From Streptomyces sp. NBC_00539 (GTDB lineage: Bacteria > Actinomycetota > Actinomycetes > Streptomycetales > Streptomycetaceae), in contig NZ_CP107811.1 of NCBI RefSeq assembly GCF_036346105.1, positions 4,545,501 through 4,609,500 of the forward strand: 64,000 nucleotides of DNA, given 5' to 3'. Positions 23,905 to 39,876 of the stretch are shown here, in pieces. Within the stretch, counting starts at the first letter, position 1; each line of letters begins with the position of its first letter. The position numbers and the translations under genes are program-made. The notes under the pieces were generated by a model, which worked only from the letters and a program-made list of their open reading frames with translations, was not told the DNA's origin and did no database searches.

Positions 23905-24891
23905 ATGGGAGCACACACCACAGGACGGGACGTGCGCGAACTCGCGCACGCCGCCCAGGTGCGGGAGCTGACCGCCGCCGGGGTCCTGCAGGACCCGCAC
24001 TGGCGGGCGGCCTTCACGGCCGTGCCCCGCCACGTCTTCGTGCCGTACTTCTGGACCGGCCGCGGCGCCGGGCACGAGCGGCTGTGGGGCGAGGACCCGG
24101 ACCCCGAGCGGCGGGCCCGCTGGCTGCGGGGGGTGTACACGGACGCGCCCCTCGCGACCCGGCTGCGCGACGGCGAGCTGCTGTCCTCCAGCAGTCAGCC
24201 CTCCCTGATGGCCAAGATGCTGGAGTCGCTGGAGGTGCGGGACGGGGACGACGTACTGGAGATCGGCGCGGGCACCGGCTACAACGCGGCGTTGCTCTGC
24301 CACCGGCTCGGCGACGAGCACGTCACCACCGTGGACCTCGACGAGGAGATCACCGAGTCCGCCCGGGCCCACCTGGTCCGGCTCGGCTACCGGCCGACCG
24401 TGGTCACCGGCGACGGGGCGCGCGGCTGTCCTTCCCGCGCCCCCTTCGACCGGATCCTGGTGACCTGCACGCTCCCGCTGATCCCGCCGGCCTGGCTCGG
24501 CCAGTGCAGGCCCGGCGCGCGCATCCTGGCCCCCCTGTCGACGGGCCTGATCGCGCTCACCGTCCGCGACGCCGACTTCGCCGAGGGCCGCTTCCTGCAC
24601 ACCCCTGCCTACTTCGTCCCCCTGCGCGGGGCCACCGCGGCGGCGCCGCCCTCCGCGGCCGCTCAGGAGGCGCTCCCGTACGAGCTGGTGGAGAACGAGC
24701 GCTTCCAGTTCATGCTGATCCTCAGCGCGGGCGCGCTGCACCCGCGGGAGGGGCTGGACCTGTGGCGCCGGGAAGGCCGTCCCGGCCGTGAGCGGTTCGG
24801 CGTGACGGTCACCCCCGAGGGGCAGTGGTCCTGGCTGGACGACCCCCAGGGCCCGTACGTGTGGCCGCTGGGGGAAGCCGCGTCGGTCTGA
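23905..24891 (+). CDS. protein-L-isoaspartate O-methyltransferase-like methyltransferase
   Basis: A 328-residue class I SAM-dependent methyltransferase with a PCMT-type layout: N-terminal VPRHVFVPYF, SSSSQPSLMAKMLESL in place of the isoaspartate-binding Ser/Gln loop, SAM motif I VLEIGAGTGYNAALL, DLDEEI (ribose-binding acidic residue), GDGARG and ILVTC. It carries about 100 extra C-terminal residues, as in actinomycete relatives that methylate peptides or proteins. It may repair isoaspartate or modify a peptide; no precursor peptide gene is adjacent. It is convergent with the FHA gene (12 bases apart). Confidence 0.8.
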   Translation: MGAHTTGRDVRELAHAAQVRELTAAGVLQDPHWRAAFTAVPRHVFVPYFWTGRGAGHERLWGEDPDPERRARWLRGVYTDAPLATRLRDGELLSSSSQPSLMAKMLESLEVRDGDDVLEIGAGTGYNAALLCHRLGDEHVTTVDLDEEITESARAHLVRLGYRPTVVTGDGARGCPSRAPFDRILVTCTLPLIPPAWLGQCRPGARILAPLSTGLIALTVRDADFAEGRFLHTPAYFVPLRGATAAAPPSAAAQEALPYELVENERFQFMLILSAGALHPREGLDLWRREGRPGRERFGVTVTPEGQWSWLDDPQGPYVWPLGEAASV

Positions 24892-24903: not shown

Positions 24904-25899
24904 TCAGCCGCGCCGGACGGTGATCGTCGTCCAGGCGCCCACGTGGACGCGGTCGCCGTCGGCGAGGGGGATGGGGACGTAGGGCTGGATCGGCTCCTCG
25001 CCGCCGTTGATCGTGGTGCCGTTGGTGGAGTTCTGGTCCACCACCGCCCAGCTGCCGTCGGGCTGCTGGACGAGGACGGCGTGCTGGTGGGAGACGCCCG
25101 GGTCCTCCGGGGGGACCGACAGGTCGATGTCGGGGGACTCGCCCGTGGAGGCACGGCGGCGGCCGATGGTGACCTGGCCGCCGGAGAGCGGCAGGTGCTG
25201 CTCGGGGGAGTAGGCGGGGAGGTTGAGCCCCGCAGCCTCGGGGCCGCTGCGCTGCATCATCGCCATGAAGTACGAACGGTCCGGGCCGATCGTCGCGCTC
25301 CAGGAACCGCCGCCGCCCTGGGAGGGGAAGGGCTGCTGGGGCTGTTGCCCGGGCTGCTGCTGCGGCGCGTACTCCTGGTGGTGCTGGGGCTGCTGGTACT
25401 CCTGCGGCGCCTGCTGCTGGTAGTGCTGTTGCTGCGGCGGTGCGTACTCCTGCCGGAGCGGCTGCTGCTCGTGCGCCGGCGGCGGGAGCAGCCAGTCGTC
25501 CTCGCGCTGGAGCGGCTCGGCCGGCCGGTTGACCCGCGACGGGCGGGAGCCCTGGTACTCGAAGTGGTCCTGGGAGAAGGTCGGCGGCGCCGGTACCGGC
25601 GGCGGGGGCACGGGCGCGCGGCCCGGGCCCGCCGGCCCGTCGGGCGCGAAGGAGGGCGGGGTCGGCGTACGGGTCAGGAAGTTGAACCGGCACTCCTCGC
25701 AGAACGGCGCCATCGCCTCGCGCGGCGTGCGGCACTGCGGGCACAGCTCGGCCTGGGCGGTCGGCTCGCCGGCCGTGGGAGGGTAGCCGTAGCCGTAGGA
25801 GGGCGCCTCGGGAGCGCTCGTAGCGGCAGCCATGCGGTGGCCGCAGACCTCGCACCAGTCGTCGGAGGCGGACTGGTGTCCGTTCGGGCAGGTCGGCAT
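24904..25899 (-). CDS. FHA-domain protein with two zinc ribbons
   Basis: A cytosolic protein of about 331 residues, last gene of the PknG operon. The N-terminus has two zinc-ribbon modules (CPNGH...CEVCGH and CPQCR...CEEC). A long Gln/Pro-rich disordered middle follows. The C-terminal FHA domain (about 235-331) has the phosphothreonine-binding signatures IGRRRAST, SHQHAVL and NSTNGTTING. FHA domains read phosphothreonine, so it is the likely partner or substrate of the kinase upstream. ATG at 25899 has GGGGGAAG upstream; ATG at 25929 is an alternative. It lacks an obvious GarA/OdhI-type N-terminal ETT motif, so it is not simply the GarA homologue. Confidence 0.9.
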   Translation of the reverse strand: MPTCPNGHQSASDDWCEVCGHRMAAATSAPEAPSYGYGYPPTAGEPTAQAELCPQCRTPREAMAPFCEECRFNFLTRTPTPPSFAPDGPAGPGRAPVPPPPVPAPPTFSQDHFEYQGSRPSRVNRPAEPLQREDDWLLPPPAHEQQPLRQEYAPPQQQHYQQQAPQEYQQPQHHQEYAPQQQPGQQPQQPFPSQGGGGSWSATIGPDRSYFMAMMQRSGPEAAGLNLPAYSPEQHLPLSGGQVTIGRRRASTGESPDIDLSVPPEDPGVSHQHAVLVQQPDGSWAVVDQNSTNGTTINGGEEPIQPYVPIPLADGDRVHVGAWTTITVRRG

Positions 25900-25944
25900 G
25901 GCGACGCTTCCCCCTTCTCCCTGCGTCATCGCGTCAGGTTCTTC

Positions 25945-27273
25945 TCAGGTCTTCTTCACTCGGACGGTCTGCGTCGAACGCGTTTCAAGGGTCATCTCGT
26001 CGGCATCGGCGACCTTCGCTTTCAGCCGCACAGTACCCGCCGCCGCATCCACGACATCCACCACCTTCGCCAGAAGCCTGGCGGTGTCGGCGTTCCCGGA
26101 GGCGCTCGCCAGCTGCACGGCGCGCCCCAGCTTGGCGGTCGCGCCGTCGACATCGCCCAGTTTGCGGGCCTCCAGCCCCTGCTGGATGGCCTGCGCCAGC
26201 TCCGCCTGTCCCGTGTAGTGCGCCACCTGCGGGCTGATGGCGGTGGAGGAGGCGAGGTCGTCCGTCCACACCGCCCGGACCAGGCCCTGGGCGAGCGTGG
26301 CCGGCGGCTCACCGGCGCCCTGGGGCATCACCAGCATGGCCCGCGCGGCCAGCATCTCCTGGCCGACGGACGCACCCGGCACCCGTACGCACACGTGGTA
26401 CTCGCGGGACTCGTCGCCCCACGAACCGGTCGGGTAGTCGCCCGCGCGCGGACCGGCTTCGGTGCGGCGGCCGGTGAGGTCCTGGACGGCGGGCGCGACC
26501 TGCTTGACGTACTGGATCTCCGCGCCGACCGGCGTCCACAGGCGCAGCGAGACGTCCGCCACCTCCTTGCCCATGACGTTCTCCATCATGCGCGTGAAGT
26601 CCTCGCTCAGGTGGGCGGGATCGGCCACGATGTCGGCGGAGCCGAGCAGCGCGCCCGCGATGTCCGTGACGTCCTTCACCTCCCAGTCGGTGCCGACACC
26701 GCGCGCGTCGCAGGTGAAGCGGCCCGCGCAGGCGTCGAGCGTGGCGCGCAGCACGGCGGGCTCCTCGTGCTCGTTGCGGCCGTCGGTGAGCAGGATCCCG
26801 TGCCGGATGGTGGCCGTCGACCCGCGCAGCAGGCCGTCGGCGAGGCGCAGCCAGGTGCCGATGGCGGTGCCGCCGCCGGCACCGAGGCCGCGCAGCGCCT
26901 CCTTGGCCTGGGCGCGGGTGGCGGGGTCGGCGGTGGCGAGACGGCCTTGGCCCGGGTAGACCTCGCGGGCCACGTGGGTACCGGCGATCACCGCGAACGA
27001 GGTGCCGTCGCGCAGCGTGTCGATGGCGGCGGCCGTGGCCTCGCGGGCGCCGCGCATCTTGGCCGGCGGGTGGTCCATCGATCCCGAGCAGTCGAGCATG
27101 ATCACGACGGCCGCGCCGCCGGGCGCGAGGGCGGCGGGGCGGGCGGCGGTGGCGCCCCCGGTGGAGGTGACCGTGACGATGGCGTGGACGTCGCGGCCGC
27201 CCTCGGGCAGGAACTCGTTCTGGTACACCTCCACGCTGAAGCGCGGGGCGCTCGGCTTGGCGAAGTTCGCCAT
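25945..27273 (-). CDS. von Willebrand factor A (VWA) domain protein
   Basis: A 442-residue cytosolic protein. After a beta-rich N-terminal segment, the VWA fold carries the metal-ion-dependent adhesion site IMLDCSGSM (about 58-66) with the later Thr (GGGTAIG) and Asp (LLTDGRNEH) ligands. The C-terminal 120 residues are helical and resemble a repeat bundle (QAELAQAIQQGLEARKLGDVDGA). VWA proteins organise complexes through metal-dependent contacts. Its gene begins ten bases after the phosphatase stop with AGGAG before the ATG, so it is translationally tied to the kinase/phosphatase unit. Partner unknown. Confidence 0.88.
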   Translation of the reverse strand: MANFAKPSAPRFSVEVYQNEFLPEGGRDVHAIVTVTSTGGATAARPAALAPGGAAVVIMLDCSGSMDHPPAKMRGAREATAAAIDTLRDGTSFAVIAGTHVAREVYPGQGRLATADPATRAQAKEALRGLGAGGGTAIGTWLRLADGLLRGSTATIRHGILLTDGRNEHEEPAVLRATLDACAGRFTCDARGVGTDWEVKDVTDIAGALLGSADIVADPAHLSEDFTRMMENVMGKEVADVSLRLWTPVGAEIQYVKQVAPAVQDLTGRRTEAGPRAGDYPTGSWGDESREYHVCVRVPGASVGQEMLAARAMLVMPQGAGEPPATLAQGLVRAVWTDDLASSTAISPQVAHYTGQAELAQAIQQGLEARKLGDVDGATAKLGRAVQLASASGNADTARLLAKVVDVVDAAAGTVRLKAKVADADEMTLETRSTQTVRVKKT

Positions 27274-27283
27274 CGGTGGACTC

Positions 27284-28990
27284 CTAGGAGGTCGGTTCCG
27301 TTTCCGGTTCCGTTTCGGCGTGGACGGGGGGCCGCGGCGGGGCGGCGGCGAAGGGGACGACGGCCACGGTGATGTTGTCGTGGCCGCCCCCGTCGAGGGC
27401 GTGCCCCACCAGGACCTGCGCGCTGTGCAGGGGGCGGAACGCCGCGTCGGGGGGAAGGACCTCGGCCATCTCCCGTGCGGACTCGGCGTAGTTCCACAGG
27501 CCGTCCGTGCAGACGACGACGACGCCGGGGTGGTCCGGCTTGAAGCTGGCGGTGTGCGGTTCGAGGTCGTACGCGTCGGCGCCGAGCCAGCCGGTGATGG
27601 CGTGGGCGCGGACGTCCGCGTACGCCTCGGCCTCGCCCATCAGGCCGGCCGCGACCATCTGGGCGGCCCAGGAGTCGTCCTCGGTGAGGCGGCGGGGGAG
27701 TGCCGCACGGTCGTCGGGCACCCAGTAGGCGCGGCTGTCACCGACCCAGCCGATGGTGAGCACGCCGCCGCTGACGACGGCGCCGACGAGGGTGCAGGCG
27801 GGGGCGTTCTGGGCGCCGGGTACCTCCGGCGCGAGCGCGTTCACGGCGGCCGCGGCGGCGAGGATCGCGTCGTGCATGGCCTCCTGCGGGTGGGCGCCGC
27901 GGGGGAGGGCTTCGAGCAGCGCCTCGTTGGCGGCGCCGGCGGCCGCGGCGGAGGCCTCGTCGGGGCGGCTGGCGGAGGAGACGCCGTCGCAGACGATGGC
28001 CACGGTGGCGGCGGAGCCGTCGGGGAGGGCGGTGGCGGCCACCGCGAAGGAGTCCTCGTTGCGGTGGTGGCGCAGCCCCCGGTCGCTGACGGCGGCGACG
28101 CTCCCGAGCTCCTCTTCGAGGTGGTCCCGCTCCCGCGGTTGCGCGTGCCCGCAGTGCTCGCAGTACCCGTCGGTGTCCACCCGCCCGGCCCGGCACGCGA
28201 CGCAGGTCTTCCCGTCGCCCGGTGCGGCCCCGGCCTCCTGCGGTGGCTCCTGCGGGGTGCTGTACGGGGGTTCTTGGGCGGGGCCTGACTGCCAGGGGCC
28301 GCCCTCGCCGGGCCCGGAGGCCGTGTCACCGTGCGGTGACCCCTGCGCGGTGCCGTACGGGGGTTCGTGGGCTGTGCCGTACGGGGGTTCCTGTGCGGGG
28401 CCGGTGCCCTGTGGGTTGCCGTACGGGTGCTCCTGGGCGGGGCCCGATTGCCAGGCGGCGGCCGGGGCCGGGTCGGCCGGGGCGGCGGACCAGTCGCCGG
28501 CGTCGTCGACCAGCGTCGGGGCGGCGCTGGTCACACTGCCCCATCCGGGCGCGGGCACACCGGAGCCGTACCCGCCTGCGGGCGCGGCCGGTTCGGGGTC
28601 GTAGGGCCGGCCCCTGACGGTGGGCGGCGACGGTACCGCCCGGGCGGCGTACTCCCCGGCGGACCCGTACTCGCTCCGCTCCCGGTCGTCCCCGGGGTAT
28701 CCGGGACCGCCGCCCGGGGCGGCGTCCGGCCCACCGGGGCCGGCCGGGGCGGGGGTCTGGTAGGCGTCCGGAGCGCCGGGGTCCCAAGGCGCCGGGGCGC
28801 GGGGGGACTCGGCGCCGGACGGGCCCGGGGCCGGGGAGGCGTCCCCGTCCGCCCCGGAGGGCGCCGCCCCGCCGGGCGGCCCTGCGTCGGGGCCGGCGGG
28901 GACCGGGTGGCCGCAGACGCCGCAGAAACGGTCAGCCTCTTCCAGGGGCTCCGCACAGCCGGGGCAGCCCGACAGCCGATGCATCGACAT
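27284..28990 (-). CDS. PP2C-family Ser/Thr phosphatase with zinc ribbons
   Basis: A 568-residue protein. The N-terminal zinc ribbon (CPGC...CGVCGH) is followed by about 230 disordered residues with PPYGT-type repeats, a second ribbon (CVACRAG...CEHCGH) and the PP2C domain (about 320-555). Metal ligands and motifs include RNEDSF, VCDGVSS, WVGDSRAYW, VCTDGLWNY and GGHDNITV. It should dephosphorylate targets of the adjacent PknG-type kinase. ATG at 28990 is chosen over the TTG just before it; it lies three bases past the kinase stop. Both enzymes carry the same kind of zinc ribbon, suggesting they are recruited to a common partner. Confidence 0.92.
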   Translation of the reverse strand: MSMHRLSGCPGCAEPLEEADRFCGVCGHPVPAGPDAGPPGGAAPSGADGDASPAPGPSGAESPRAPAPWDPGAPDAYQTPAPAGPGGPDAAPGGGPGYPGDDRERSEYGSAGEYAARAVPSPPTVRGRPYDPEPAAPAGGYGSGVPAPGWGSVTSAAPTLVDDAGDWSAAPADPAPAAAWQSGPAQEHPYGNPQGTGPAQEPPYGTAHEPPYGTAQGSPHGDTASGPGEGGPWQSGPAQEPPYSTPQEPPQEAGAAPGDGKTCVACRAGRVDTDGYCEHCGHAQPRERDHLEEELGSVAAVSDRGLRHHRNEDSFAVAATALPDGSAATVAIVCDGVSSASRPDEASAAAAGAANEALLEALPRGAHPQEAMHDAILAAAAAVNALAPEVPGAQNAPACTLVGAVVSGGVLTIGWVGDSRAYWVPDDRAALPRRLTEDDSWAAQMVAAGLMGEAEAYADVRAHAITGWLGADAYDLEPHTASFKPDHPGVVVVCTDGLWNYAESAREMAEVLPPDAAFRPLHSAQVLVGHALDGGGHDNITVAVVPFAAAPPRPPVHAETEPETEPTS

Positions 28991-28993
28991 CAA

Positions 28994-31501
28994 TCACACC
29001 CACGTCCGGGGACGGAAACGGTTAGCCCGCTCCACCAGTTCGATCCTCTCCTCGCCCCGCTGCGCCAGCCGAGCGAGGACGCGGTACGAGCGCTCCAGGC
29101 CGAAGCGCAGCCCCCGCTCGTCCAGTTGACTGCCGAGCAGCGAGGTCCGGCCGGGGTCGGCACCCCGGCTACCCGACAGTACCCAGTCCAGGGCCGAGCC
29201 CAGAACCTCCACCGACAGCCGTTCCCTGCGCACCGAGTCCAGCCCGAACCGCCCCAGCGCCTCCACCTGCGCGGCAGCCGCCACCAGGTCGGGCAGCAAC
29301 GGCTCTTCCGGTGACCGGTCGCGCAGGCGTGCCCGTACGGCCGCCACCCGGGCGGCGGTGTAGTGGATCGACACCTCCGGGACCGACTCCAGCGTCCGCA
29401 CCGCCCCCGCCCGGTCGCCGGACGCGAGCTGCACCCGCGCCAGCCCGAACGCCGCGCTCACGAAGCCGGGATCGGTGATCCAGACGAGCCGGTAGTACTC
29501 GGCGGCGTTGTCCAACTGCCCCAGGACCTCCGCGCACAGCCCCAGCGCCAGCTTCGGCGCGGGCTCGCCGGGGAAGGCGTCGTAGACGGCGTCGAAGGAC
29601 AGGGCGGCCACCTCGTCGTCCCCGGTGGCCAGGGAGGCGATGCCGCGCGCCCACACCACCCGCCAGTCGTCGGGGTGCCGGGCCTCCAGCTCGGCCAGCG
29701 CCGCCCCCGCCACCGCGAGTTCGCCCAGCTCCAGCCGGGCCCGCAGCTCCCGCAGCCGCAGTTCGGCGGAGTCGGCCGGCGCCGAGCCCAGCGCCCCGAG
29801 GAGGTCGGTGGGCGCGGCGGTGAGCAGTCCGGCGAGGAACCCGGCGTTGGCGTCGGCCGCATCCACCAGCGGAACCGGGAGCGCCAGCGCCGTACCCCGG
29901 GCGTCCGGCTCCGCCGGCCCGCCGCGCGGAGCGGGGCCGGCCGGGACGGCCCGGTTCACCGCCCCGCTCCGCCGCTGCGCCGGGACCACCGCGCCGGCCC
30001 CGGCGGCGGTACCCGCCTCGTCTGCGTACAACCGGGTGTCCGGCACCCGCAGTTCCGGCCCGAACAGCGTCGAAAGCTGGGGGCGCGGCCGCCCCGTCTG
30101 GAGCGCCACGACCTCCCGCAGCACGCCCGTCAACTGGTCCGCCATCTCCTGCGCGGACGCGAACCTGCGGCCGGGATCCGGGTCCGTGGCCCGTACCAGC
30201 AGCCGGTAGAACGACTCGTACCGCCGGAACACCTCGATGTGCTCGGGGTCCGGCAGCGAATCCACGAACACGTTCGTGTAGCCCTGGAAGTCGAAGGTCA
30301 GCACCGCCAGGGTGCGCGCCACCGTGTACAGGTCCGACGCCACCGAGGGACCCAGTTCCGCCACCTCCGGCGCCTGGTAGCCCACCGTGCCGTAGATGGC
30401 CGACTCCTCGTCGTCCATCCGCCGCACCGCGCCCATGTCGATGAGCTTGAGCTGGTCCTGCTGCTGGATCGCGTTGTCGACCTTGAAGTCGCAGTACAGC
30501 AGGTTCCTGCTGTGCAGGTGACCGAGCGCCTCCAGCGCCTCGATGCCGTACGCGCACGCCTGCTCGACCGGCAGCGGGTCGCGCCTGCCGTCCGGCCGAC
30601 GCCGCTCGTTGGCGATCTCCTTGAGCGACTTGCCGCCGACGTACTCCATGACGATGTACCCGTCCAGCGAACCGGTCCGCTGGTCCAGGTGCTCCACGAA
30701 GTTGTAGATCCGCACGATGTTGGAGTGCTCGATCTCCGCGAGGAAGCGCCGCTCGGAGATCGCCGCCTCCATCGCGTCCTGGTCCCCGGTGTCCAGCAGG
30801 CCCTTGAGCACCACCCAGCGGTCCGAGACCGCCTTGTCCACCGCCAGGTACACCCAGCCGAGGCCGCCGTGGGCCAGGCAGCCCGCCACCTCGTACTGCC
30901 CGCGCACCACGTCGCCCGCGTTCAGCTTGGGCACGAAGGAGTACGGGTGCCCGCACTTGGTGCAGAACCCCTCCGTCCTGCCCGGCCGGTCGCCGCGCGC
31001 CCGCCCCACCGGGGCCCCGCAGTCCGAGCGGGAGCAGAACCGCTTGCGCTCGGGGACCTCGGGGTTCTCCAGTACCGCCGCCGACGGGTCCGGCCGGGGC
31101 ACCTGCGGCACGTCGACCAGACCGGCCCCCAGACGGCCGCGCCCCGAAGACGAGCCGGCCGAACCCGAACTGCGCACCGACACCGAACGGCTGGACGCCG
31201 TCCCCGGCAGCGAACGCGACAGCCGCCCCGACACCGAACGCCGCGACGAGGACGAACGCGAGGAACGCGCCGACCGGGAGGAGCCGGCCGACGCGGACGA
31301 GGAGCGCCCCGAGCCCCGGGAATCACCGTGCCGCGCGGCGCTGGTCATGCCGGTGGGCGGCGACACCAGTTCCTCCGCACCCGCCGACACGGCGCCGACC
31401 GGCGCCAGCCCGCAGGTGCCGCAGTAGACCTCCCCGCCCCCCATGTCCTCGTACGACCCCGGGCAGCCGGGGCGCACGCACGCGGTTCCGATCAGGCTCA
31501 T
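28994..31501 (-). CDS. pknG: PknG-type Ser/Thr protein kinase with zinc ribbons and TPR tail
   Basis: An 835-residue cytosolic kinase. Zinc ribbon 1 has Cys 8, 13, 27 and 30; an Arg/Ser-rich region (about 57-123) follows; ribbon 2 has Cys 156, 161, 180 and 183. The kinase domain begins near 203, with glycine loop HGGLGWVY, Lys233, catalytic YCDFKVDN (Asp338) and LIDMGAVRR (Asp355) in place of DFG, all PknG traits. The C-terminal 300 residues are TPR-like. PknG of mycobacteria and corynebacteria controls 2-oxoglutarate dehydrogenase through the FHA protein GarA/OdhI. ATG at 31501 overlaps the upstream stop by four bases (ATGA) and has AAGGGAAGA before it. Confidence 0.9.
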   Translation of the reverse strand: MSLIGTACVRPGCPGSYEDMGGGEVYCGTCGLAPVGAVSAGAEELVSPPTGMTSAARHGDSRGSGRSSSASAGSSRSARSSRSSSSRRSVSGRLSRSLPGTASSRSVSVRSSGSAGSSSGRGRLGAGLVDVPQVPRPDPSAAVLENPEVPERKRFCSRSDCGAPVGRARGDRPGRTEGFCTKCGHPYSFVPKLNAGDVVRGQYEVAGCLAHGGLGWVYLAVDKAVSDRWVVLKGLLDTGDQDAMEAAISERRFLAEIEHSNIVRIYNFVEHLDQRTGSLDGYIVMEYVGGKSLKEIANERRRPDGRRDPLPVEQACAYGIEALEALGHLHSRNLLYCDFKVDNAIQQQDQLKLIDMGAVRRMDDEESAIYGTVGYQAPEVAELGPSVASDLYTVARTLAVLTFDFQGYTNVFVDSLPDPEHIEVFRRYESFYRLLVRATDPDPGRRFASAQEMADQLTGVLREVVALQTGRPRPQLSTLFGPELRVPDTRLYADEAGTAAGAGAVVPAQRRSGAVNRAVPAGPAPRGGPAEPDARGTALALPVPLVDAADANAGFLAGLLTAAPTDLLGALGSAPADSAELRLRELRARLELGELAVAGAALAELEARHPDDWRVVWARGIASLATGDDEVAALSFDAVYDAFPGEPAPKLALGLCAEVLGQLDNAAEYYRLVWITDPGFVSAAFGLARVQLASGDRAGAVRTLESVPEVSIHYTAARVAAVRARLRDRSPEEPLLPDLVAAAAQVEALGRFGLDSVRRERLSVEVLGSALDWVLSGSRGADPGRTSLLGSQLDERGLRFGLERSYRVLARLAQRGEERIELVERANRFRPRTWV

Positions 31502-32877
31502 CCGTCTTCCCTTTCCGCCCCGCCGTCGGCGGGGGGCGTCTCCTGCGGCTGGGGCTGCGACTGCGGCGCCAGCGCCTCGGCCGTCGCCCGCTGGTAGCGC
31601 AGCACGGCCTGCTCGGCGGCCCGCAGGTCGCACGGCGCGCTCCACAGCATCCGCCGGGCCGTGTCGTAGCGCTCCATCAGCAGCGGGTCCTCCGCCATGC
31701 CGTGCCGGGCGACCTTCGCCTTGTACGCGTCGAGCCGGCCCCGCAGCTCCGCCCGCACCGCGAGCGGCGCCGTCACCGCCGTCAGCGACTCGCGGGCGCG
31801 GCGCAGTTCGTCCTCGGCGCGTTCCTCCAGGGACTCCAGCAGCGGTGACAGCCGGTGCCACTGCGCCTGACGGCGGTACTCGGCCGCCGCCGCGAGCTGC
31901 TCCTGCAACGCCGTCGGCGGACCGCTGACCGCCGGAACCTCCGACGCGGCGATCTTCGCCAGCACCTCGCCGCGCGCAGTCCGCGCCTCCGCGAGGGTCC
32001 GGTCGGCCCGCGAGAGGACGTCCCGCACGCCCATCAGCCGCTGCTCGGCGTCCTGCCGTACCGCCAGCACCGCCTCGATCTCACGGCGTACGTCGTCCAG
32101 CGCGCGCGCAGCCCGGTCGTACCGGGTGGTGTCCGGACGGCCGCCGCCCGGGGCGGAGCTCCCCGCCACCCTGACCCAGAACGCCAGCGGGTCCGCGATC
32201 ACCTGCTCCCGCAGCTGCGCCAGCTCTGCGGTGATGTCCTCCAGGTCGTCCCCCGAAGGATGTTCACCGGGGCGCACGCCGACCGAACGCGCCAGCGAAC
32301 GGGTCCGGTGCAGTTCGGCGGCGAGCAGGTCGATCCGGGCGGGCAGCGCCGACCAGACCGCGTCGGCGGCCACCACCACGTCCAGGGAGCCGGCGTACAG
32401 CTCGTTCATCCGCACCACCAGCTCCGCGAGGGAGAACCGCTCCGCGATCCCGGCCCCCTCGGCCCCTGCCCCGGCGACCACCACACCGGGCCCGCGCAGC
32501 CGGTCGGTCAGTTCCGCGAGGTCCTCGCGGCTGGGCCAGCGCCGCCGTTCGCGGATCTGCCGGGCGGCGGCCAGAGCGCCGCTGTAGGCGTCGAAGTACG
32601 TCCACAGCCGGGTGATGGCCGCGTCGGCGGCCGTCCACCGCTCCTTGGTGGTCCCGGTCAGCCCGGCGCCCTCCAGCAGCCGCCGCCCGGCGTGGTCCTG
32701 GAGCGCGAGCAGGGAGGTCTCCACGGCCTCGTGCTCCGCGCCCAGGCGGGCCAGCGCGCGGTCGACCTCGTCCCGGTCCATCACTGCCGGCCCCGTCTGC
32801 GGAAGGCGCACCCGGCTCTCCCCGTTCTCCTCGCCCGCGTACGGCTGCGGTCCCGATCCGTATCCCGATCCGGCCAC
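31498..32877 (-). CDS. coiled-coil protein of the PknG operon
   Basis: A 459-residue protein without signal peptide or membrane helices, predicted by eye to be almost wholly alpha-helical with heptad-like stretches (EVDRALARLGAEHEAVETSLLALQ; REIEAVLAVRQDAEQRLMGVRDVL; LESLEERAEDELRRARESL). The C-terminus is a Gln/Pro-rich tail. Its stop overlaps the kinase start, and it begins four bases after the glnH stop, so it is made together with sensor and kinase. A scaffold that bridges the membrane sensor to the kinase is plausible but inferred from position only. Confidence 0.75.
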   Translation of the reverse strand: MAGSGYGSGPQPYAGEENGESRVRLPQTGPAVMDRDEVDRALARLGAEHEAVETSLLALQDHAGRRLLEGAGLTGTTKERWTAADAAITRLWTYFDAYSGALAAARQIRERRRWPSREDLAELTDRLRGPGVVVAGAGAEGAGIAERFSLAELVVRMNELYAGSLDVVVAADAVWSALPARIDLLAAELHRTRSLARSVGVRPGEHPSGDDLEDITAELAQLREQVIADPLAFWVRVAGSSAPGGGRPDTTRYDRAARALDDVRREIEAVLAVRQDAEQRLMGVRDVLSRADRTLAEARTARGEVLAKIAASEVPAVSGPPTALQEQLAAAAEYRRQAQWHRLSPLLESLEERAEDELRRARESLTAVTAPLAVRAELRGRLDAYKAKVARHGMAEDPLLMERYDTARRMLWSAPCDLRAAEQAVLRYQRATAEALAPQSQPQPQETPPADGGAEREDG

Positions 32878-32881
32878 GGCC

Positions 32882-33991
32882 TCAGCCGTCCCGGTACTTG
32901 GGCGCGGGCGGTGCGGTGACGTTCGGCAGCACGGCCTCCAGGTGGGTGCGGTAGGCCTGCATCCAGGGACTGTCGTTGCCGCCCGCGCGGTAGTTCTCCA
33001 GCACCTTGTTCACGCGGCGCACCAGGTCGCCCGCGTCCTTGTTCATCGCGACGCCGTAGAACTCGCGGGTGAAGGGCGAGCCGACCAGCTGCACGGACGG
33101 GTCCTGCGCCGCCTGGCCCGCCGCGAGGGCGTTGTCGGTGATGATGCCGTCCACCTCGCCCAGCTGGAGCCGGACCAGGCAGTCCAGCTGGTTGGCCACG
33201 GAGACCGGGACCGCGCCGTACGACTGGGACCTGAGGGCCGTCTCCGCGGTGGAACCGGCGGCGGTGCAGATCTTGCGGCCGTTCAGCGAGGGGTCGTAGC
33301 CGGTGATCGGGGAGCCCTTCGGCGCCAGGACCTGCTGCCCGGCCTCGAAGTACGCCGTGGAGAAGGCGACGTCCTCCAGCCGCTTGCAGTTGATGGTCAT
33401 GGTGCGCACCACGATGTCGACGCGGTTCTCCTTGAGCGCGGGGACGCGCTGGCTGGTGGGGATGGCCCGGTAGATGACGGCGTTCTCATCACCCAGGATG
33501 TCCTTGGCGATGGCCTTGACCAGCGCGATGTCGAAGCCGTCGAGGTGGCCGTCCGGCTTGCGGTAGCCCCACTTGAAGCTGTTCTGGTCCACGCCCGCGA
33601 CGAGTTTGCCCGCCTTGCGGATCCGCTCGATCGCCGGGCCGTCCACCCCGCCCGGCCGCAGGCTGGCCTCGGGGTCCTGGCAGGTGTCGGCCGGGGTCGC
33701 CGGAGCCAACGCCATCGTGGCGGGCGGCCGGACCGCGCCGGGCCCGACGCCGTCCGGAGCGGCCTGGGCCAGCGGCAGCAGCACGGCCGCCGCGGTCAGC
33801 GCACAGGCGACCGCCATCGCGCCGACACCGCCCCAGCCGCGCAGCCGGCGCACGGGCCACCGCGCCGCGGAGCCCCCGGACCGGCCGGCCCCGGGGGCGG
33901 CCCCGGACCGGCCGGCCGCGGAGCCCGCCGGCTCCCCGGCCGGGCTGCCGTCGGCGCCGTACCCCTGGTCCCGTCCCGCGCGTATCCGCAT
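32882..33991 (-). CDS. glnH: amino-acid-binding protein of the PknG sensing operon (GlnH-like)
   Basis: A 369-residue membrane-tethered solute-binding protein, family 3. A Gly/Ala-rich cytoplasmic N-terminus leads to one hydrophobic segment (about 55-77). The ligand-binding domain runs from KAGKLVAGVDQNSFKWGYR through GFDIALVKAIAKDILG, NRVDIVVRTMTINCKR, AYFEAGQQVLAPKGS to the C-terminal lobe. This is the glutamate/aspartate/glutamine-binding type, but no ABC permease or ATPase is adjacent. In mycobacteria GlnH binds Asp/Glu and signals through GlnX to PknG; the same gene set here argues for sensing rather than import. ATG at 33991 follows the glnX stop by five bases. Confidence 0.87.
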   Translation of the reverse strand: MRIRAGRDQGYGADGSPAGEPAGSAAGRSGAAPGAGRSGGSAARWPVRRLRGWGGVGAMAVACALTAAAVLLPLAQAAPDGVGPGAVRPPATMALAPATPADTCQDPEASLRPGGVDGPAIERIRKAGKLVAGVDQNSFKWGYRKPDGHLDGFDIALVKAIAKDILGDENAVIYRAIPTSQRVPALKENRVDIVVRTMTINCKRLEDVAFSTAYFEAGQQVLAPKGSPITGYDPSLNGRKICTAAGSTAETALRSQSYGAVPVSVANQLDCLVRLQLGEVDGIITDNALAAGQAAQDPSVQLVGSPFTREFYGVAMNKDAGDLVRRVNKVLENYRAGGNDSPWMQAYRTHLEAVLPNVTAPPAPKYRDG

Positions 33992-33996
33992 CGATC

Positions 33997-35427
33997 TCAC
34001 CTGTACTCCGAAAGCCTGCGACCGATGCCGAGCAGTGCGGCCGCCGCACCGACGACCGCCAGGGCCGCCGAGCCCGTCACCAGACCGCCCAGCGCCCCGA
34101 GTCCGCCCCGGGCCGCCTGAGTGAACTGCTTCTGCTCGTGGGCCACGGCCTGCTCCAGGGAGGCGTCCACCGTGTCGAAGGAGGCCCCGCTGCTGTCCTT
34201 GTGGTCCTTGTCGCCGATGACCTGCGGCAGCGCGAGCTCGTAGTCGCCGCGCATATCGGTCTCCCGGGCCGCCGCGTGCCGCTGCTTCCACTGCGCCACG
34301 CCGTCGAGGGCCTGCTGGACGGGCCGGCGGCCACTGCTGTCGTCGGCCAGCCGCAGTGCCGTCGCCAGCCCCGAGTCCAGCTCCTTCATGTTCTTCGTGA
34401 ACTCCACGTCGTACTTGTCGGACGTCTTGTCCTCGGCCAGTACGGCGCCGCGCGCGATCAGCGTCAGGTTCTCGCCGGCCCGCGCCTGGAGCGAGGCGAT
34501 CCGCGCGTCGTTCAGCACCTTGAGCGACTCCTGCCCGCCGGAACGGGCCTCACTCAGCCCCGACCGGGCCAGTGTCTGTCCGACGGTCAGCCACAGCAGC
34601 ACCACCGCCGCGGCGGCCGTCGCCGCGACGAGGCCGTGGTTGAAGACACGGTTGGTCCGGCGGTAGTTGCGCCGCTGCGCCCACACCAGGGCGCCGAGCG
34701 CGAGCAGGCCGGTGAGCGTCGCGACGGGCGGCCAGGAACGGGCGTCGTCGTAGTCCTTGTAGAGCCGGCCCGTCTCCGCCTCGTAGAGCCGCTGGGCGGC
34801 CGGCAGCAGCACCGTGCTCATCTGCTCGTTGGCGTACCGCAGGTACGCGCCGCCGAGCGGCAGACCCTGCCGGTTGGTGGCCCGCGCCTGCTCGATCAGG
34901 CCCGTGTAGCGCGGCAGCTGCTGACCCAGCAGCGCTATCTCCTTGCGGGAGTCCCCGCCGGCGTCGGTGTTGGCGGCCGCGTTCACCAGCAGGCGGGAGG
35001 CGTTCGCGATGTCCTTCTCGTACCGTTCGCGGACTTCGCGCGGCTCCTGGGCGCCCGCGAGGAAACCGCTGGAGGACGCGGTGTCCGCGTCCGCGAGGGA
35101 ACGGTAGATGCTCGCCGCGTCCGCGCTCAGCGGCTGGCTGTGCCCCACCACGTCCTCGGCGGCGGTCACCCGGTCCGAGACCTCCCACACCGCCGACGTG
35201 CCGAACAGCAGCACCAGGGCGGCGAGTACCGCCCCGATGATGCGCAGCCGGCCCGGCTCCGTGGTCGCGGCCGCGCGCAGCCGCTCGACGCCCTCGGCCC
35301 AGGCGGTGCGCGGCCCGGGCGGTGCGGGCTGCTGCGCGGGCGGTCCGGCGGCGGGCGTCGTGGAGACACCGCCGCCGGGCGCGGGCGCGCGTGATGTGAT
35401 GGCCACCGTGACCTCCCCCTCGGTCAT
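33997..35427 (-). CDS. glnX: four-helix membrane signal transducer (GlnX-like)
   Basis: A 476-residue membrane protein with four transmembrane helices (about 62-82, 234-250, 266-287, 441-468) and two helical extracytoplasmic domains (about 83-233 and 288-440) like four-helix-bundle chemoreceptor sensors. The N-terminal 60 residues are Pro-rich and cytoplasmic. No catalytic motif is present. It is first in the operon with GlnH and PknG, the same trio as mycobacterial glnX-glnH-pknG, where GlnX relays amino-acid binding from GlnH to PknG. ATG at 35427 has GGGGGGAAG upstream; GTG at 35406, with its own GAGGGGGAGG, is an alternative. Confidence 0.82.
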   Translation of the reverse strand: MTEGEVTVAITSRAPAPGGGVSTTPAAGPPAQQPAPPGPRTAWAEGVERLRAAATTEPGRLRIIGAVLAALVLLFGTSAVWEVSDRVTAAEDVVGHSQPLSADAASIYRSLADADTASSSGFLAGAQEPREVRERYEKDIANASRLLVNAAANTDAGGDSRKEIALLGQQLPRYTGLIEQARATNRQGLPLGGAYLRYANEQMSTVLLPAAQRLYEAETGRLYKDYDDARSWPPVATLTGLLALGALVWAQRRNYRRTNRVFNHGLVAATAAAAVVLLWLTVGQTLARSGLSEARSGGQESLKVLNDARIASLQARAGENLTLIARGAVLAEDKTSDKYDVEFTKNMKELDSGLATALRLADDSSGRRPVQQALDGVAQWKQRHAAARETDMRGDYELALPQVIGDKDHKDSSGASFDTVDASLEQAVAHEQKQFTQAARGGLGALGGLVTGSAALAVVGAAAALLGIGRRLSEYR

Positions 35428-35672: not shown

Positions 35673-36719
35673 TCACCCGAAATGGGCACGGAGTTTGCCG
35701 TACGCCTCGGGCGGCGCCCCCACCGCGTCCAGCCCCAGCAGCCCCGCGCCCAGTACCGGCGGGGCCACCACCACCGAGATCCGGGCCCGCGGGGCCGCTT
35801 CCGCCAGCCCCGACTCGATCGCCCCGTTCAGCTGTGGATGTCCGGCGGCGAGCACCCCGCCGCCCAGCAGGACGGGAACCTCCTCGCCGAGCATCCCGAG
35901 CCGCGCCAGCGCCACCGACGCCATGGCCACCACCTCCCCGGCCTGGCGCTCCACGATCGCCGAAGCCACCGGATCGCCGGCCGCGGCCACCGCGAACAGC
36001 ACCGGCACCAGCTCGTGGGTGCGCTCGTACGCCACCGCGCCCAGGTGCAACGCCTCGATCAGGCCGGCCATCCTCGCGAACCCGAAGTGACCCGGCACCG
36101 CCGAGGCCAGCTCGGTCGGGCCGCCGCGTCCGTCCTCGGCCCGCGCCGCCCACCACAGGACCTCCGCGGCCAGACCCGAACCGCCGCCCCAGTCGCCGGA
36201 GATCCGCCCGAGCGCCGGGAACCGTGCGGTCCGGCCGTCGGGGGCCACTCCCACGCAGTTGATCCCGGCCCCGCACACCACGGCGACCCCGTACGGGGCT
36301 CCCGGCGCCGTCAGTCCGGCCCGCAGGACGGCGAAGGTGTCGTTGCGCACCTCGGTCGCCGTGCCCCAGCCGCGGGCGCCGATCGCGTCCGCGAGCCGCC
36401 GTTCCTCCACCGGCAGGTCGGCGTTGGCCAGGCAGGCCGACACCTGCTGCGCGTACGGGCCGTCGGGACGCAGTCCGGCCGCCTCCGCCGCCTCCACGAC
36501 GGCTTGCCCGAGCACGTCCACGGCCGCCTCGACCCCGGTGCGGGGCGGCTGGAAGCCCCCGGAGCGGCCGGTGCCGAGCACCGTGCCGTCGGCGCTGACG
36601 AGGGCCGCGTCGGTCTTGCTGTTCCCGGCGTCGACGGCCAGCACGGCGGCCGGGGGCGGGCCGGCAGCGGGCGGCGCCGCGAGCGGGGCGGCGCGCGGCG
36701 CGGCCGGGTTCAGGCCCAT
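35673..36719 (-). CDS. csnK: amino-sugar kinase, BadF/BadG-type ATPase (CsnK)
   Basis: A 348-residue sugar kinase of the ASKHA superfamily: VLAVDAGNSKTDAALV (phosphate 1), GISGDWGGGSGL-type segment ISGDWGGGSGL (phosphate 2) and VLLGGGVLAAG (adenosine). Actinomycete members phosphorylate GlcNAc or glucosamine. It is last in the chitosan-oligosaccharide operon, where the kinase prepares released glucosamine for metabolism. ATG at 36719 overlaps the end of csnH and uses an AAGGAG located inside csnH, so translation is coupled. The N-terminus has a low-complexity Pro/Ala stretch of about 15 residues before the fold. Confidence 0.82.
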   Translation of the reverse strand: MGLNPAAPRAAPLAAPPAAGPPPAAVLAVDAGNSKTDAALVSADGTVLGTGRSGGFQPPRTGVEAAVDVLGQAVVEAAEAAGLRPDGPYAQQVSACLANADLPVEERRLADAIGARGWGTATEVRNDTFAVLRAGLTAPGAPYGVAVVCGAGINCVGVAPDGRTARFPALGRISGDWGGGSGLAAEVLWWAARAEDGRGGPTELASAVPGHFGFARMAGLIEALHLGAVAYERTHELVPVLFAVAAAGDPVASAIVERQAGEVVAMASVALARLGMLGEEVPVLLGGGVLAAGHPQLNGAIESGLAEAAPRARISVVVAPPVLGAGLLGLDAVGAPPEAYGKLRAHFG

Positions 36720-38026
36720 GCCAGGTACTCCTTGTTGTGCGCGAGCAGCCGGTCCGTCAGGCCCTCGGCGAGGTCGAACTGCCCGACCAGCGGGTGCGCC
36801 AGCAGCGCCCGGAAGACCCGCTCGCGGCCGCCGCGCAGCGCCGCGTCCAGCGCGAGGTCCTCGTACGCGGTGACGTGGGAGATCAGCCCGGCGTACAGGG
36901 GGTCCAGCCGGGGCACCGCCAGCGGGACCGGCCCCGAACCGCCCGCGCCGCCGGAACCGCCCGCGCCGCCCGATCCGCCCGCGCCGTCGATGCGCGCCTG
37001 CACCTCGATGACGGCGTCGTCCGGCAGGAACGGCAGGGTCCCGGCGTTGCGGGTGTTGACGACCTGCACCGGGGACGCGCCGCGGCCGTCGCCCAGCAGG
37101 GCCGCCGCGAGGTCCACGGCCGCCTCCGAGTAGAACGCCCCGCCCCGCCGGGCCAGCAGGGCGGGCTTCTCGTCCAGTGCGGGGTCGGCGTACAGGGCGA
37201 GCAGCTCCCGCTCCATCGCCGCGACTTCGGCGGCCCGCGAGGGCTTCGCACCGAGCTCCCGGACCACCTCGTCGTGCGCGTAGAAGTAGCGCAGGTAGTA
37301 CGACGGCACCACGCCGAGCCGGTCCAGCACGGCCCGCGGCAGCCGCAGGTCGGCGGCGATGGCCCCGCCGTGCTCGGCGAGCAGCCCGGGCAGCAGGTCC
37401 TCGCCGTCGGGGCCGCCCTTGCGCACGCCCAGCTCCCACGTGAGGTGGTTGAGGCCGACGTGGTCGAGGTGGATGCCGGACGGGTCGACCCCCAGCAGCG
37501 CCGCGAACTTCCTCTGCAGGCCGATGGCGACGTTGCACAGCCCCACCGCCCGGTGCCCGGCCCCCAGCAGCGCCCGCGTGACGATCCCGACCGGGTTGGT
37601 GAAGTCGATGATCCAGGCGTCGGGACTGGCCCGCCGGACCCGTTCGGCGATGTCGAGGACGACCGGGACGGTGCGCAGGGCCTTGGCGAGCCCGCCCGCA
37701 CCGGTGGTCTCCTGGCCGAGGCAGCCGCACTCCAGCGGCCACGTCTCGTCCCGGAGCCGGGCCGCCTGTCCGCCGATCCGCAGCTGGAGGAGGACCGCAT
37801 CGGCGCCGGCGACGCCCGCGTCCAGATCGGCGGTGGTGGTGATCTTGCCGGGATGGTCCTGCCTGGCGAAGATCCGCCGGGCCAGGCCGCCGACCAGCTC
37901 CAGCCGGTCCTCGGCCGGATCGATCAGCACCAGTTCGCTGACGGGCAGGGTGTCGCGCAACCGCGCGAAGCCGTCGATCAGCTCGGGGGTGTAGGTGGAA
38001 CCGCCGCCCACCACTGCGAGTTTCAT
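36710..38026 (-). CDS. csnH: GH4-family NAD-dependent glycosidase (CsnH)
   Basis: A 438-residue cytosolic GH4 enzyme. The Rossmann motif VVGGGSTYTPE starts the protein; DFTNPVGIVTRAL, VGLCNVAIG (metal-binding Cys) and HVGLNHLTW (catalytic His region) follow. GH4 enzymes cleave by NAD+-dependent oxidation/elimination with Mn2+, usually on 6-phospho-glycosides. In the csn operon it should split imported chitosan oligosaccharides. A Gly/Ser-rich insert built of GGSGGA repeats lies near residues 350-368, just before the C-terminal helices; this looks like repeat expansion at a surface loop. ATG at 38026 is five bases after the permease stop. Confidence 0.87.
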   Translation of the reverse strand: MKLAVVGGGSTYTPELIDGFARLRDTLPVSELVLIDPAEDRLELVGGLARRIFARQDHPGKITTTADLDAGVAGADAVLLQLRIGGQAARLRDETWPLECGCLGQETTGAGGLAKALRTVPVVLDIAERVRRASPDAWIIDFTNPVGIVTRALLGAGHRAVGLCNVAIGLQRKFAALLGVDPSGIHLDHVGLNHLTWELGVRKGGPDGEDLLPGLLAEHGGAIAADLRLPRAVLDRLGVVPSYYLRYFYAHDEVVRELGAKPSRAAEVAAMERELLALYADPALDEKPALLARRGGAFYSEAAVDLAAALLGDGRGASPVQVVNTRNAGTLPFLPDDAVIEVQARIDGAGGSGGAGGSGGAGGSGPVPLAVPRLDPLYAGLISHVTAYEDLALDAALRGGRERVFRALLAHPLVGQFDLAEGLTDRLLAHNKEYLAWA

Positions 38027-38031
38027 CGTCG

Positions 38032-38934
38032 CTAGCCTTTCACTCCGGTCAGTGTGACTCCCTCGACGAACGCCTTCTGGGCGAAGAAGAAGAGGACGAT
38101 CACCGGCGCCATGACGAGCACGGTCGCCGCCATGGTCAGGTTCCAGTTGGTGTGGTGCGCCCCCTTGAAGGACTCCAGGCCGTAACTGAGCGTCCAGGCG
38201 GCGGGGTTGTCGGAGGCGTAGATCTGCGGGCCGAAGTAGTCGTTCCAGGCGTAGAAGAACTGGAACAGCGCGACGGCGGCGATCCCGGGCCTGGCCATCG
38301 GCAGTACGACGCGCAGCAGCGTGCGCAGCTCGCCGCAGCCGTCGACACGGGCCGCGTCCAGGTACTCGTCGGGGATCGTCAGCAGGAACTGGCGCAGCAG
38401 GAAGACCGAGAACGCGTCGCCGAACGCCATGGGGATGATCAGCGGCCACAGCGTGCCGGACAGGTCCAGCTGCCCGGCCCAGAACAGGTACATCGGGATG
38501 ACCACCACCTGCGGCGGCAGCATCATCATCGCGATCACCAGCAGGAGCGACAGCCGCCGCCCGCGGAAGCGGAACTTGGCGAGCGCGTAGGCGACGGGCA
38601 CGGAGGAGACCACGGTCAGCAGTGTGCCGACTCCCGCGTACAGCAACGTGTTGCGCCACCAGGTCAGGAAGCCGGGGGTGTGCCACACCCGGGAGTAGTT
38701 GCCCCACTGCCAGGTGTGGGGCCACAGGTCGCGGGTCAGCGCCTGCCGGTCGTCCATCACGGAGGTCAGGAAGAGGAAGACGAAGGGGAGGACGAAGAAC
38801 AGGGCGGCGGCCACCCCCAGGCTGTGCACGGCCACCCAGTGCACGAGCGCGCCCCGGGCGCGCCGAGGCGGTGCGGGGGCGGTCCGCGCGGGGGCGGTGC
38901 CCGTCGCCGTCGTGGTCACGGCCATGTCAGTCAC
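38032..38934 (-). CDS. csnG: carbohydrate ABC transporter permease, MalG type (CsnG)
   Basis: A 300-residue inner-membrane permease with six helices (the first about residues 34-58) and the cytoplasmic EAA loop, here YLDAARVDGCGELRTLLRVVLPMARPG, that docks the ATPase. It pairs with CsnF. The GTG at 38934 overlaps the csnF stop by eight bases; ATG at 38925 with AGGTGA upstream is equally possible. No ATPase gene is in the operon; streptomycete sugar importers share the multitask ATPase MsiK encoded elsewhere. Confidence 0.9.
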   Translation of the reverse strand: MTDMAVTTTATGTAPARTAPAPPRRARGALVHWVAVHSLGVAAALFFVLPFVFLFLTSVMDDRQALTRDLWPHTWQWGNYSRVWHTPGFLTWWRNTLLYAGVGTLLTVVSSVPVAYALAKFRFRGRRLSLLLVIAMMMLPPQVVVIPMYLFWAGQLDLSGTLWPLIIPMAFGDAFSVFLLRQFLLTIPDEYLDAARVDGCGELRTLLRVVLPMARPGIAAVALFQFFYAWNDYFGPQIYASDNPAAWTLSYGLESFKGAHHTNWNLTMAATVLVMAPVIVLFFFAQKAFVEGVTLTGVKG

Positions 38935-39871: not shown

Positions 39872-39876
39872 CGGGG

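Follow-up and report, generated by a model that had tools for sequence, protein, structure and literature searches.

The window analysed here, 64,000 nucleotides from the 7.5 Mb genome of Streptomyces sp. NBC_00539 (G000:C1:4545501-4609500), harbours a minus-strand cluster of seven genes (24904-35427), whose products centre on the sensor pair GlnX-GlnH and the protein kinase PknG. In the order of transcription the cluster encodes GlnX, a membrane signal transducer of 476 amino acids (33997..35427), GlnH, a solute-binding sensor (32882..33991), an all-helical coiled-coil-like protein, abbreviated CC in the following (31498..32877), PknG (28994..31501), a PP2C phosphatase (27284..28990), a VWA protein (25945..27273) and an FHA protein (24904..25899; its open reading frame (ORF) is open to 25929, and the start at 25899 was picked by homology to starts of the type MPTCPNGHQS). 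The junctions derived from these coordinates measure 5, 4, -4, 3, 10 and 45 bases, the CC end overlapping the PknG start by 4 bases; both coordinates and junctions agree with an earlier note on this DNA, which had described a minus-strand operon of seven tightly packed genes, and the tight spacing suggests one transcription unit. No terminator-like sites were detected on the minus strand between 24700 and 36200 (one on the plus strand), and a sigma-70 promoter scan, which carries little weight here, found none at the operon. A conserved eighth gene, encoding a PAMT-like O-methyltransferase of the PIMT fold family (23905..24891, plus strand), lies just outside the cluster, convergent with the FHA gene and ending 12 bases from its stop. 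We read the locus, with moderate confidence, as a fuller actinomycete form of the GlnX-GlnH-PknG system, working by the mechanism proposed below.

The earlier note had named GlnX, GlnH and PknG from the letters alone, and these identities hold. GlnX matches NF058618 with 473 bits (cut-off 250, E 8.5e-142), stays below the cut-off of the narrower equivalog NF041460 (190 bits, cut-off 780) and contains, according to a hydropathy script, hydrophobic segments at residues 58-84, 261-280 and 441-469. The best structural relatives of GlnH are 6h2t and 6h1u, both GlnH of M. tuberculosis (E 2.3e-55). PknG aligns with 2PZI over residues 122-832 (E 2.1e-170) and possesses the complete architecture of the kinase in Pfam terms (PknG_rubred, Pkinase, PknG_TPR), preceded by a ribbon-like motif and a basic, Ser-rich linker. 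On a PknG tree, a Streptomyces is the named row next to this genome.

For comparison across actinomycetes, 60 stretches were fetched around PknG matches and searched with iterated profiles of the seven proteins; families are labelled f1 to f34, f1 being the same genus and f6 the mycobacteria-type, as one member's PknG scores 1282 bits to 2PZI. A second set, the named loci, consists of the top 80 among 591 confirmed loci from a profile scan of genome contigs and therefore samples close relatives, almost all of them from Streptomyces and a few from Kitasatospora or Actinacidiphila. Automatic ORF starts and gaps contain artefacts and were taken for gene order only. All seven genes are present in 46 of the 60 fetched stretches, the full set being found in 29/29 loci of f1, 9/9 of f3, 2/5 of f16, 3/4 of f17, 2/2 of f22, 1/1 of f12 and 0/5 of f6, where four loci contain the trio alone and L078, the second copy in its genome, PknG alone. 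Five paralogue-type loci, none of them complete, were set aside in these counts (L075 and L076 of the same genus; L088, L089 and L090 of f17, genome G082 contributing no copies besides the latter two); with them included, the numbers become 29/31 for the same genus and 17/24 for the five other families (17/21 without). Four of these five paralogue-type loci have VWA, some have CC, FHA or GlnX homologues, and they perhaps represent a smaller related kinase operon. As to the incomplete loci of f16 and f17, L082 is truncated by a contig end, L085 begins at one and is missing VWA and FHA inside the stretch, L086 is without CC, and L093 is without CC, VWA and FHA. In the named loci, all seven genes stand in order in 63/80; of the remaining 17, contig ends truncate 15, L139 has the complete set but its order hinges on ORF midpoints, and in L167 the VWA gave no match. 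The record of L139 is titled Microtetraspora glauca, groups with Streptomyces by PknG and possibly belongs to a mislabelled strain.

The earlier note had named the co-conservation of the seven genes among the conditions on which its proposed circuit depends, and co-conserved they are. The sensor pair comes first in the same genus, f3, f12, f17 and f22, and the alternative order CC-PknG-PP2C-VWA-FHA-GlnX-GlnH is found in f16 (L083, L084) and in Nonomuraea gerenzanensis; the persistence of the same seven genes under both orders points to a functional set, and the recurrence of both content and order speaks against a chance cluster. (The N. gerenzanensis record, L222, NZ_LT559118.1, is listed as a plasmid of 11.85 Mb, a size which suggests a mislabelled chromosome.) The seven-gene form is the common form in the sampled families other than the mycobacteria-type. 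The four genes beyond the trio are thus no Streptomyces extension of it, as the earlier note had supposed, and the simplest reading of this unrooted comparison is that the extra genes were lost in mycobacteria. The PknG system is widespread, yet far from universal: in an even draw of the class, PknG was found in 39/118 genomes (E 1e-20) and GarA in 115/118. Absence of PknG in some Streptomyces was considered, as G001, G002 and G008 gave no match at first, and rejected: in G001 (79% complete) and G002, GlnX and a portion of GlnH or CC are still found where the contigs end, consistent with breaks in the assembly. G008 yielded a CC fragment close to the end of a contig as the sole piece and no GlnX, and a loss of PknG is possible there.

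These distributions bear on an alternative in which the trio acts as in mycobacteria, on GarA alone, while CC, PP2C, VWA and FHA form a separate phosphorylation module sharing the operon. Such a division would suit the four of five mycobacteria-type loci with nothing besides the trio, the trio's functioning in C. glutamicum, as described in passages of PMC9769921, and the location of the GarA gene outside the operon. It fits poorly with the fact that CC, PP2C, VWA and FHA flank PknG and accompany it whichever side the sensor pair is on, and with the retention of VWA beside PknG in 4/5 paralogue-type loci, and we regard it as unlikely.

The remaining operon proteins carry recognisable domains and, within the genus, intact motifs; the motif and ribbon patterns used are loose. 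Pfam assigns PP2C_2 (1.1e-12) to the phosphatase, VWA_3_C (7.1e-21) to the tail of the VWA protein, in which a DCSGSM metal-site motif is found, and FHA (5.1e-16) to the C-terminus of the FHA protein, which follows two ribbon-like motifs and a low-complexity linker. The PP2C of the window has NED, CDG, GDSRAY, DGLW and DNIT; the CDG, GDSR, DGLW and DNIT patterns recur in 29/29 same-genus and 73-75/78 named sequences, the NED pattern in 29/29 and 69/78. The FHA domain of the window has GR, S..H and NGT, and the patterns GR, S..H and STNGT are present in 29/29 same-genus and 63-65/66 named proteins. Zinc-ribbon-like motifs occur once at the N-terminus of PknG, twice in PP2C, twice in the FHA protein and once in GarA. 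Pfam ribbon scores for the PP2C and FHA motifs are under the cut-offs, and the two FHA ribbons of the window, missed by the pattern, were read by eye (Pfam DZR 0.0059, below cut-off). In C. glutamicum the phosphatase Ppp reverses OdhI phosphorylation (PMC9769921, in part), which makes an operon-encoded counter-enzyme of PknG plausible, a role the PP2C may fill. CC has no Pfam match over cut-off and no NCBIfam match. Its predicted structure (mean pLDDT 90.6, pTM 0.75) is almost all helix, with long helices, and a Foldseek search of this model against the PDB returned 197 matches at E <= 10 and none at E <= 0.001 (best 0.65), so that no fold is assigned. Our guess from the model would be a helical, coiled-coil-rich adaptor; possibly it is an unseen helical fold. 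A defence system was considered and rejected: of VWA, PP2C, PknG, CC and FHA searched against PADLOC, PknG alone matched, through its kinase domain.

The sensor pocket was compared by mapping the residue numbers given in PMC6069109 through an alignment to M. tuberculosis GlnH. According to the portion of that paper describing the contacts, R147, T162 and W232 interact with the ligand side chain and S164, R169 and D250 with its amine and carboxyl groups. GlnH of the window keeps R147, T162, R169 and D250, with Thr for S164, Arg for K161 and Gln for W232. The amine and carboxyl contacts are thus satisfied by T, R and D, the exchange of S164 to T being conservative; a Ser/Thr exchange at the GlnH pocket also occurs in C. 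glutamicum (PMC9769921, in part). An amino-acid pocket is therefore likely, as judged from these residues. Position 232, though, is Gln in 29/29 same-genus and 77/79 named sequences (His in two), Tyr, His, Ile, Leu, Val, Ala or Asp in other non-mycobacterial families, and Trp in four mycobacteria-type sequences; in the same portion of PMC6069109, Asn is described as unable to bond Trp232. With Gln in place of W232, Asp/Glu specificity cannot be assumed, and the Asp/Glu sensing put forward in the earlier note finds no backing at this position. Outside the genus further pocket residues vary: R147 aligns with Glu in 6/9 f3 sequences, D250 is Thr in 3/4 of f17 and R169 is Asn in 1/4 of f16. Printed N-termini read by eye have a Cys after the hydrophobic stretch in most other families, whereas GlnH of the window and seven further Streptomyces N-termini have the stretch with no Cys at its end.

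At the other end of the pathway, the operon FHA protein is, as the earlier note had stated, not GarA-like: its best GarA match is 1.3e-4, it scores 22 bits against the OdhI equivalog (cut-off 200), and ETTS is not in its sequence. A search of the genome for a separate GarA/OdhI homologue found one, encoded at G000:C1:5864403-5865257 (L002:404-1258), which contains ETTS, matches solved GarA with E 1.3e-47 and reaches 191 bits against the OdhI equivalog, just under its cut-off. The oxoglutarate dehydrogenase C-terminal domain is encoded once in the genome, and GarA with ETTS is present in 5/5 same-genus genomes read, this one among them. With both GarA and the dehydrogenase domain encoded, the classical output is possible; the suggestion of the earlier note that the output differs from control of 2-oxoglutarate dehydrogenase is to that extent not substantiated. 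Ten FHA-domain matches, some of them paired, were counted in the genome.

How PknG would meet GarA is less evident. Recruitment of GarA or OdhI occurs, in the kinases that have been studied, through phospho-threonines at the N-terminus (PMC8546545, in part). The Streptomyces PknG N-terminus consists of a ribbon motif (CVRPGC...CGTCG, 31409..31480 on the minus strand in the window), which occurs in 0/5 mycobacteria-type sequences and is broken in 3/4 first-type f17 loci, followed by about 101 residues averaging 29.7 Ser, 5.7 Thr, 14.5 Arg/Lys and 1.4 Asp/Glu (98/110 sequences, those with readable anchors). In 85-residue cuts of the mycobacteria-type N-termini, 4/5 are more acidic than basic and one is about even, and this difference leaves room for a different mode of GarA docking. 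It could also be taken to mean that PknG no longer serves GarA and that the operon FHA protein has become both its main substrate and its output, controlling something other than 2-oxoglutarate dehydrogenase, in line with the view of the earlier note. The retention of the FHA gene in the operon would agree with such a replacement as well; the conservation of GarA with its ETTS in all same-genus genomes read disagrees with it, without settling the matter, since other kinases could phosphorylate GarA. Altogether we consider this replacement quite improbable and retain GarA as a target in the fuller system.

GarA of this genome itself has an N-terminal ribbon motif, which is found in 0/6 mycobacteria-type GarAs. 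In a survey of 40 fetched regions plus L002, the motif was seen in 17/18 readable PknG-bearing genomes other than the mycobacteria-type (f23 is without it and one was unreadable). A tie of this ribbon to PknG was rejected, because 7/12 readable PknG-less genomes also have it (4 unreadable); the parallel between the PknG and GarA ribbons is thus one contrast with mycobacteria rather than proof of a link.

In the mechanism proposed for the fuller system, GlnH outside the membrane would bind an amino acid or a similar ligand and, once loaded, turn on PknG via GlnX; PknG would then phosphorylate GarA, whose gene lies elsewhere, and probably proteins of the operon, the operon PP2C would take the phosphates off again, and the FHA protein would read phospho-threonines made by PknG. 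FHA, VWA and the helical CC together may constitute a second output or scaffold arm, which is absent from mycobacteria-type genomes, and in Streptomyces the FHA linker may in addition be modified by the adjoining PAMT-like enzyme. GlnH-GlnX-PknG-GarA signalling is known from other species (PMC6069109, PMC9769921 and PMC8546545, each in part). For the present locus, identities, conservation, the catalytic and binding motifs within the genus and the presence in the genome of GarA and of the domain it targets are read from sequence; PP2C as counter-enzyme, FHA/VWA/CC as scaffold and the PAMT modification are what we infer beyond them. The extra operon parts are widely conserved, and their roles are putative.

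Several findings weigh against this picture. Outside the genus, the NED pattern is present in 0/21 PP2Cs, CDG and GDSR in 0/2 of f22, and STNGT in 2/18 first-copy FHA proteins. The members missing in L085, L093 and L086 indicate that not all parts are indispensable. The W232 difference in GlnH counts here too, bearing on ligand specificity and not on the shared GlnX-GlnH-PknG architecture. With a basic, Ser-rich instead of a mostly acidic PknG N-terminus, the known docking of GarA is not assured, and the PAMT-like gene was detected at Streptomycetaceae loci only, and not at every one.

The PAMT-like protein matches Pfam PCMT (2e-30) and TIGR04188 (5.3e-83; 279 bits, below the cut-off of 380); as to the C-terminal domain of RiPP-type PAMTs, the matches to TIGR04188 and TIGR04364 go no further than residue 248 of the 328, with some 80 residues lying beyond. 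It is encoded by the sole such gene in the genome at E 1e-15. A homologue lies on the opposite strand in 27/29 same-genus and 55/80 named loci, one more being on the same strand; ample downstream room was available in 65/80 named loci. None was found in the stretches of f3, f16, f17, f22 and f12, which extend 0.9 to 9.4 kb beyond the FHA ORF, and the Nonomuraea stretch has a 126-bit PAMT match about 10 kb past GlnH. A 2023 study assigned 1410 PAMTs to a conserved "FHA-VWA" cluster, with the FHA protein suggested as their substrate (PMC10787088, in part). In the window, the two genes do adjoin and the FHA linker is Pro/Gln-rich.

Within this otherwise hypervariable linker two islands are conserved, separated by 5 to 319 residues: island A, SRPSxxNRPAEP-like, in 84/96 same-family FHA proteins and island B, [DGE]D[WF]..PP, in 90/96, truncated L151 and L169 being included in the 96. 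In the window they read SRPSRVNRPAEP (FHA residues 118-129, 25513..25548, minus strand) and EDDWLLPPP (residues 133-141, 25477..25503, minus strand), the latter being a candidate site of Asp modification. Neither is found in 18 FHA proteins of other families. We put forward, as a tentative and rather doubtful proposal, that the FHA protein carries a programmed aspartimide or isoaspartate at the linker DDW..PP, made by the neighbouring PAMT-like enzyme; that the kinase, phosphatase and sensor of the operon act on this same FHA protein is, to the same degree, a speculative possibility. If true, peptide-maturation chemistry would be joined to Ser/Thr kinase signalling. The first-ribbon DDW of the FHA protein was rejected as PAMT site, a D-W or D-Y pair being present there also in families that have no PAMT at the locus.

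The islands could also be ordinary protein-binding motifs unrelated to the PAMT-like enzyme, a view to which we assign a little less than an even chance. Both are kept in four genomes without an orthologous PAMT (L051, L139 and L140 have none, L108 a weak partial match), and island B persists in 10/13 proteins without PAMT at the locus. Island A is seen in 79/83 proteins with PAMT at the locus and in 5/13 without, an association which runs counter to independent motifs but whose Fisher p of 3.9e-6 (L151 and L169 included, L109 counted as PAMT-less) is uncorrected for phylogeny; in a tree-corrected sign test it is not significant (median p 0.5, range 0.25-1; 93 rows, without L151 and L169 and with L109 taken as PAMT-bearing, since its genome has a 71% identical PAMT gene away from the fetched stretch). 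On the tree, PAMT changes 9 times and island A 6 times. What speaks further for a connection with the enzyme is the adjacency of its gene to the FHA gene and the PP2C linker of the same operon, where no such island exists (a DW-like motif is found in 22/93).

Compared with the Mycobacterium/Corynebacterium system, the locus shares homologous GlnX, GlnH and PknG with rubredoxin and TPR parts and a GarA encoded elsewhere in the genome; it differs by its four extra operon genes, a GlnH with W232 replaced by Gln and no evident lipobox, the ribbon and basic Ser-rich segment at the PknG N-terminus and the ribbon on GarA. The TerY-P triad consists of VWA, PP2C and kinase, a gene combination similar to the one described here, where the kinase is of the PknG type and accompanied by sensor genes. 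The kinase-phosphatase-FHA circuit of type VI secretion is formed by PpkA, PppA and Fha. The combination of kinase, PP2C, FHA and VWA is again alike, with a PknG-type kinase and a membrane sensor pair as the differences, and the operon FHA stays well below the cut-off of NCBIfam TagH (40 bits, cut-off 120). PpkA unites kinase and VWA in its architecture (PMC1262709, in part). The eukaryotic-type Ser/Thr protein kinase (eSTPK) cluster SCO4775-4779 is, from the part of PMC4416010 dealing with it, a different kind of locus. The cluster of PMC10787088 likewise has PAMT beside an FHA protein, the latter with a Pro/Gly-rich N-terminal region, and comprises about ten conserved genes plus ABC transporter genes; the passages of that paper on the cluster do not mention PknG, GlnX or GlnH, and its figure S13a may show the same genes. 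In a literature search, none of the titles, abstract openings and passages covered joins the PAMT FHA-VWA cluster to PknG/GlnX/GlnH.

Already known, therefore, are the trio, described in 2018 as conserved in Streptomyces (PMC6069109, in part), the PAMT cluster of 2023 and the proposal that PAMT modifies the FHA protein (PMC10787088). Added here are the join of that cluster to PknG/GlnX/GlnH, the seven-gene form as the common one in the sampled families, the differences in sensor pocket and docking segment, the linker islands, and the DDW site and regulatory reading of the PAMT proposal. Glutamate metabolism in mycobacteria and corynebacteria is governed by PknG and GarA, and in Saccharopolyspora the erythromycin yield is raised by engineering GarA (PMC12321487, in part). 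The most-studied species carry the short operon; in the fuller version the kinase is joined by a phosphatase and a phospho-reader and, in Streptomyces, perhaps by an enzyme that modifies Asp. Deletions at this single locus, in harmless soil bacteria, would allow the sensing of amino acids, the reversal of phosphorylation and an unusual modification of the protein backbone to be probed together.

Upstream of the operon (35673-41211, minus strand) lie genes for a BadF-type kinase, a GH4 hydrolase, two ABC permeases and one solute-binding protein, a neighbourhood that is often conserved. The BadF stop is 245 bases from the GlnX start, so these genes are probably a separate unit; BadF and GH4 adjoin the operon in 25/29 same-genus and 68/80 named loci.

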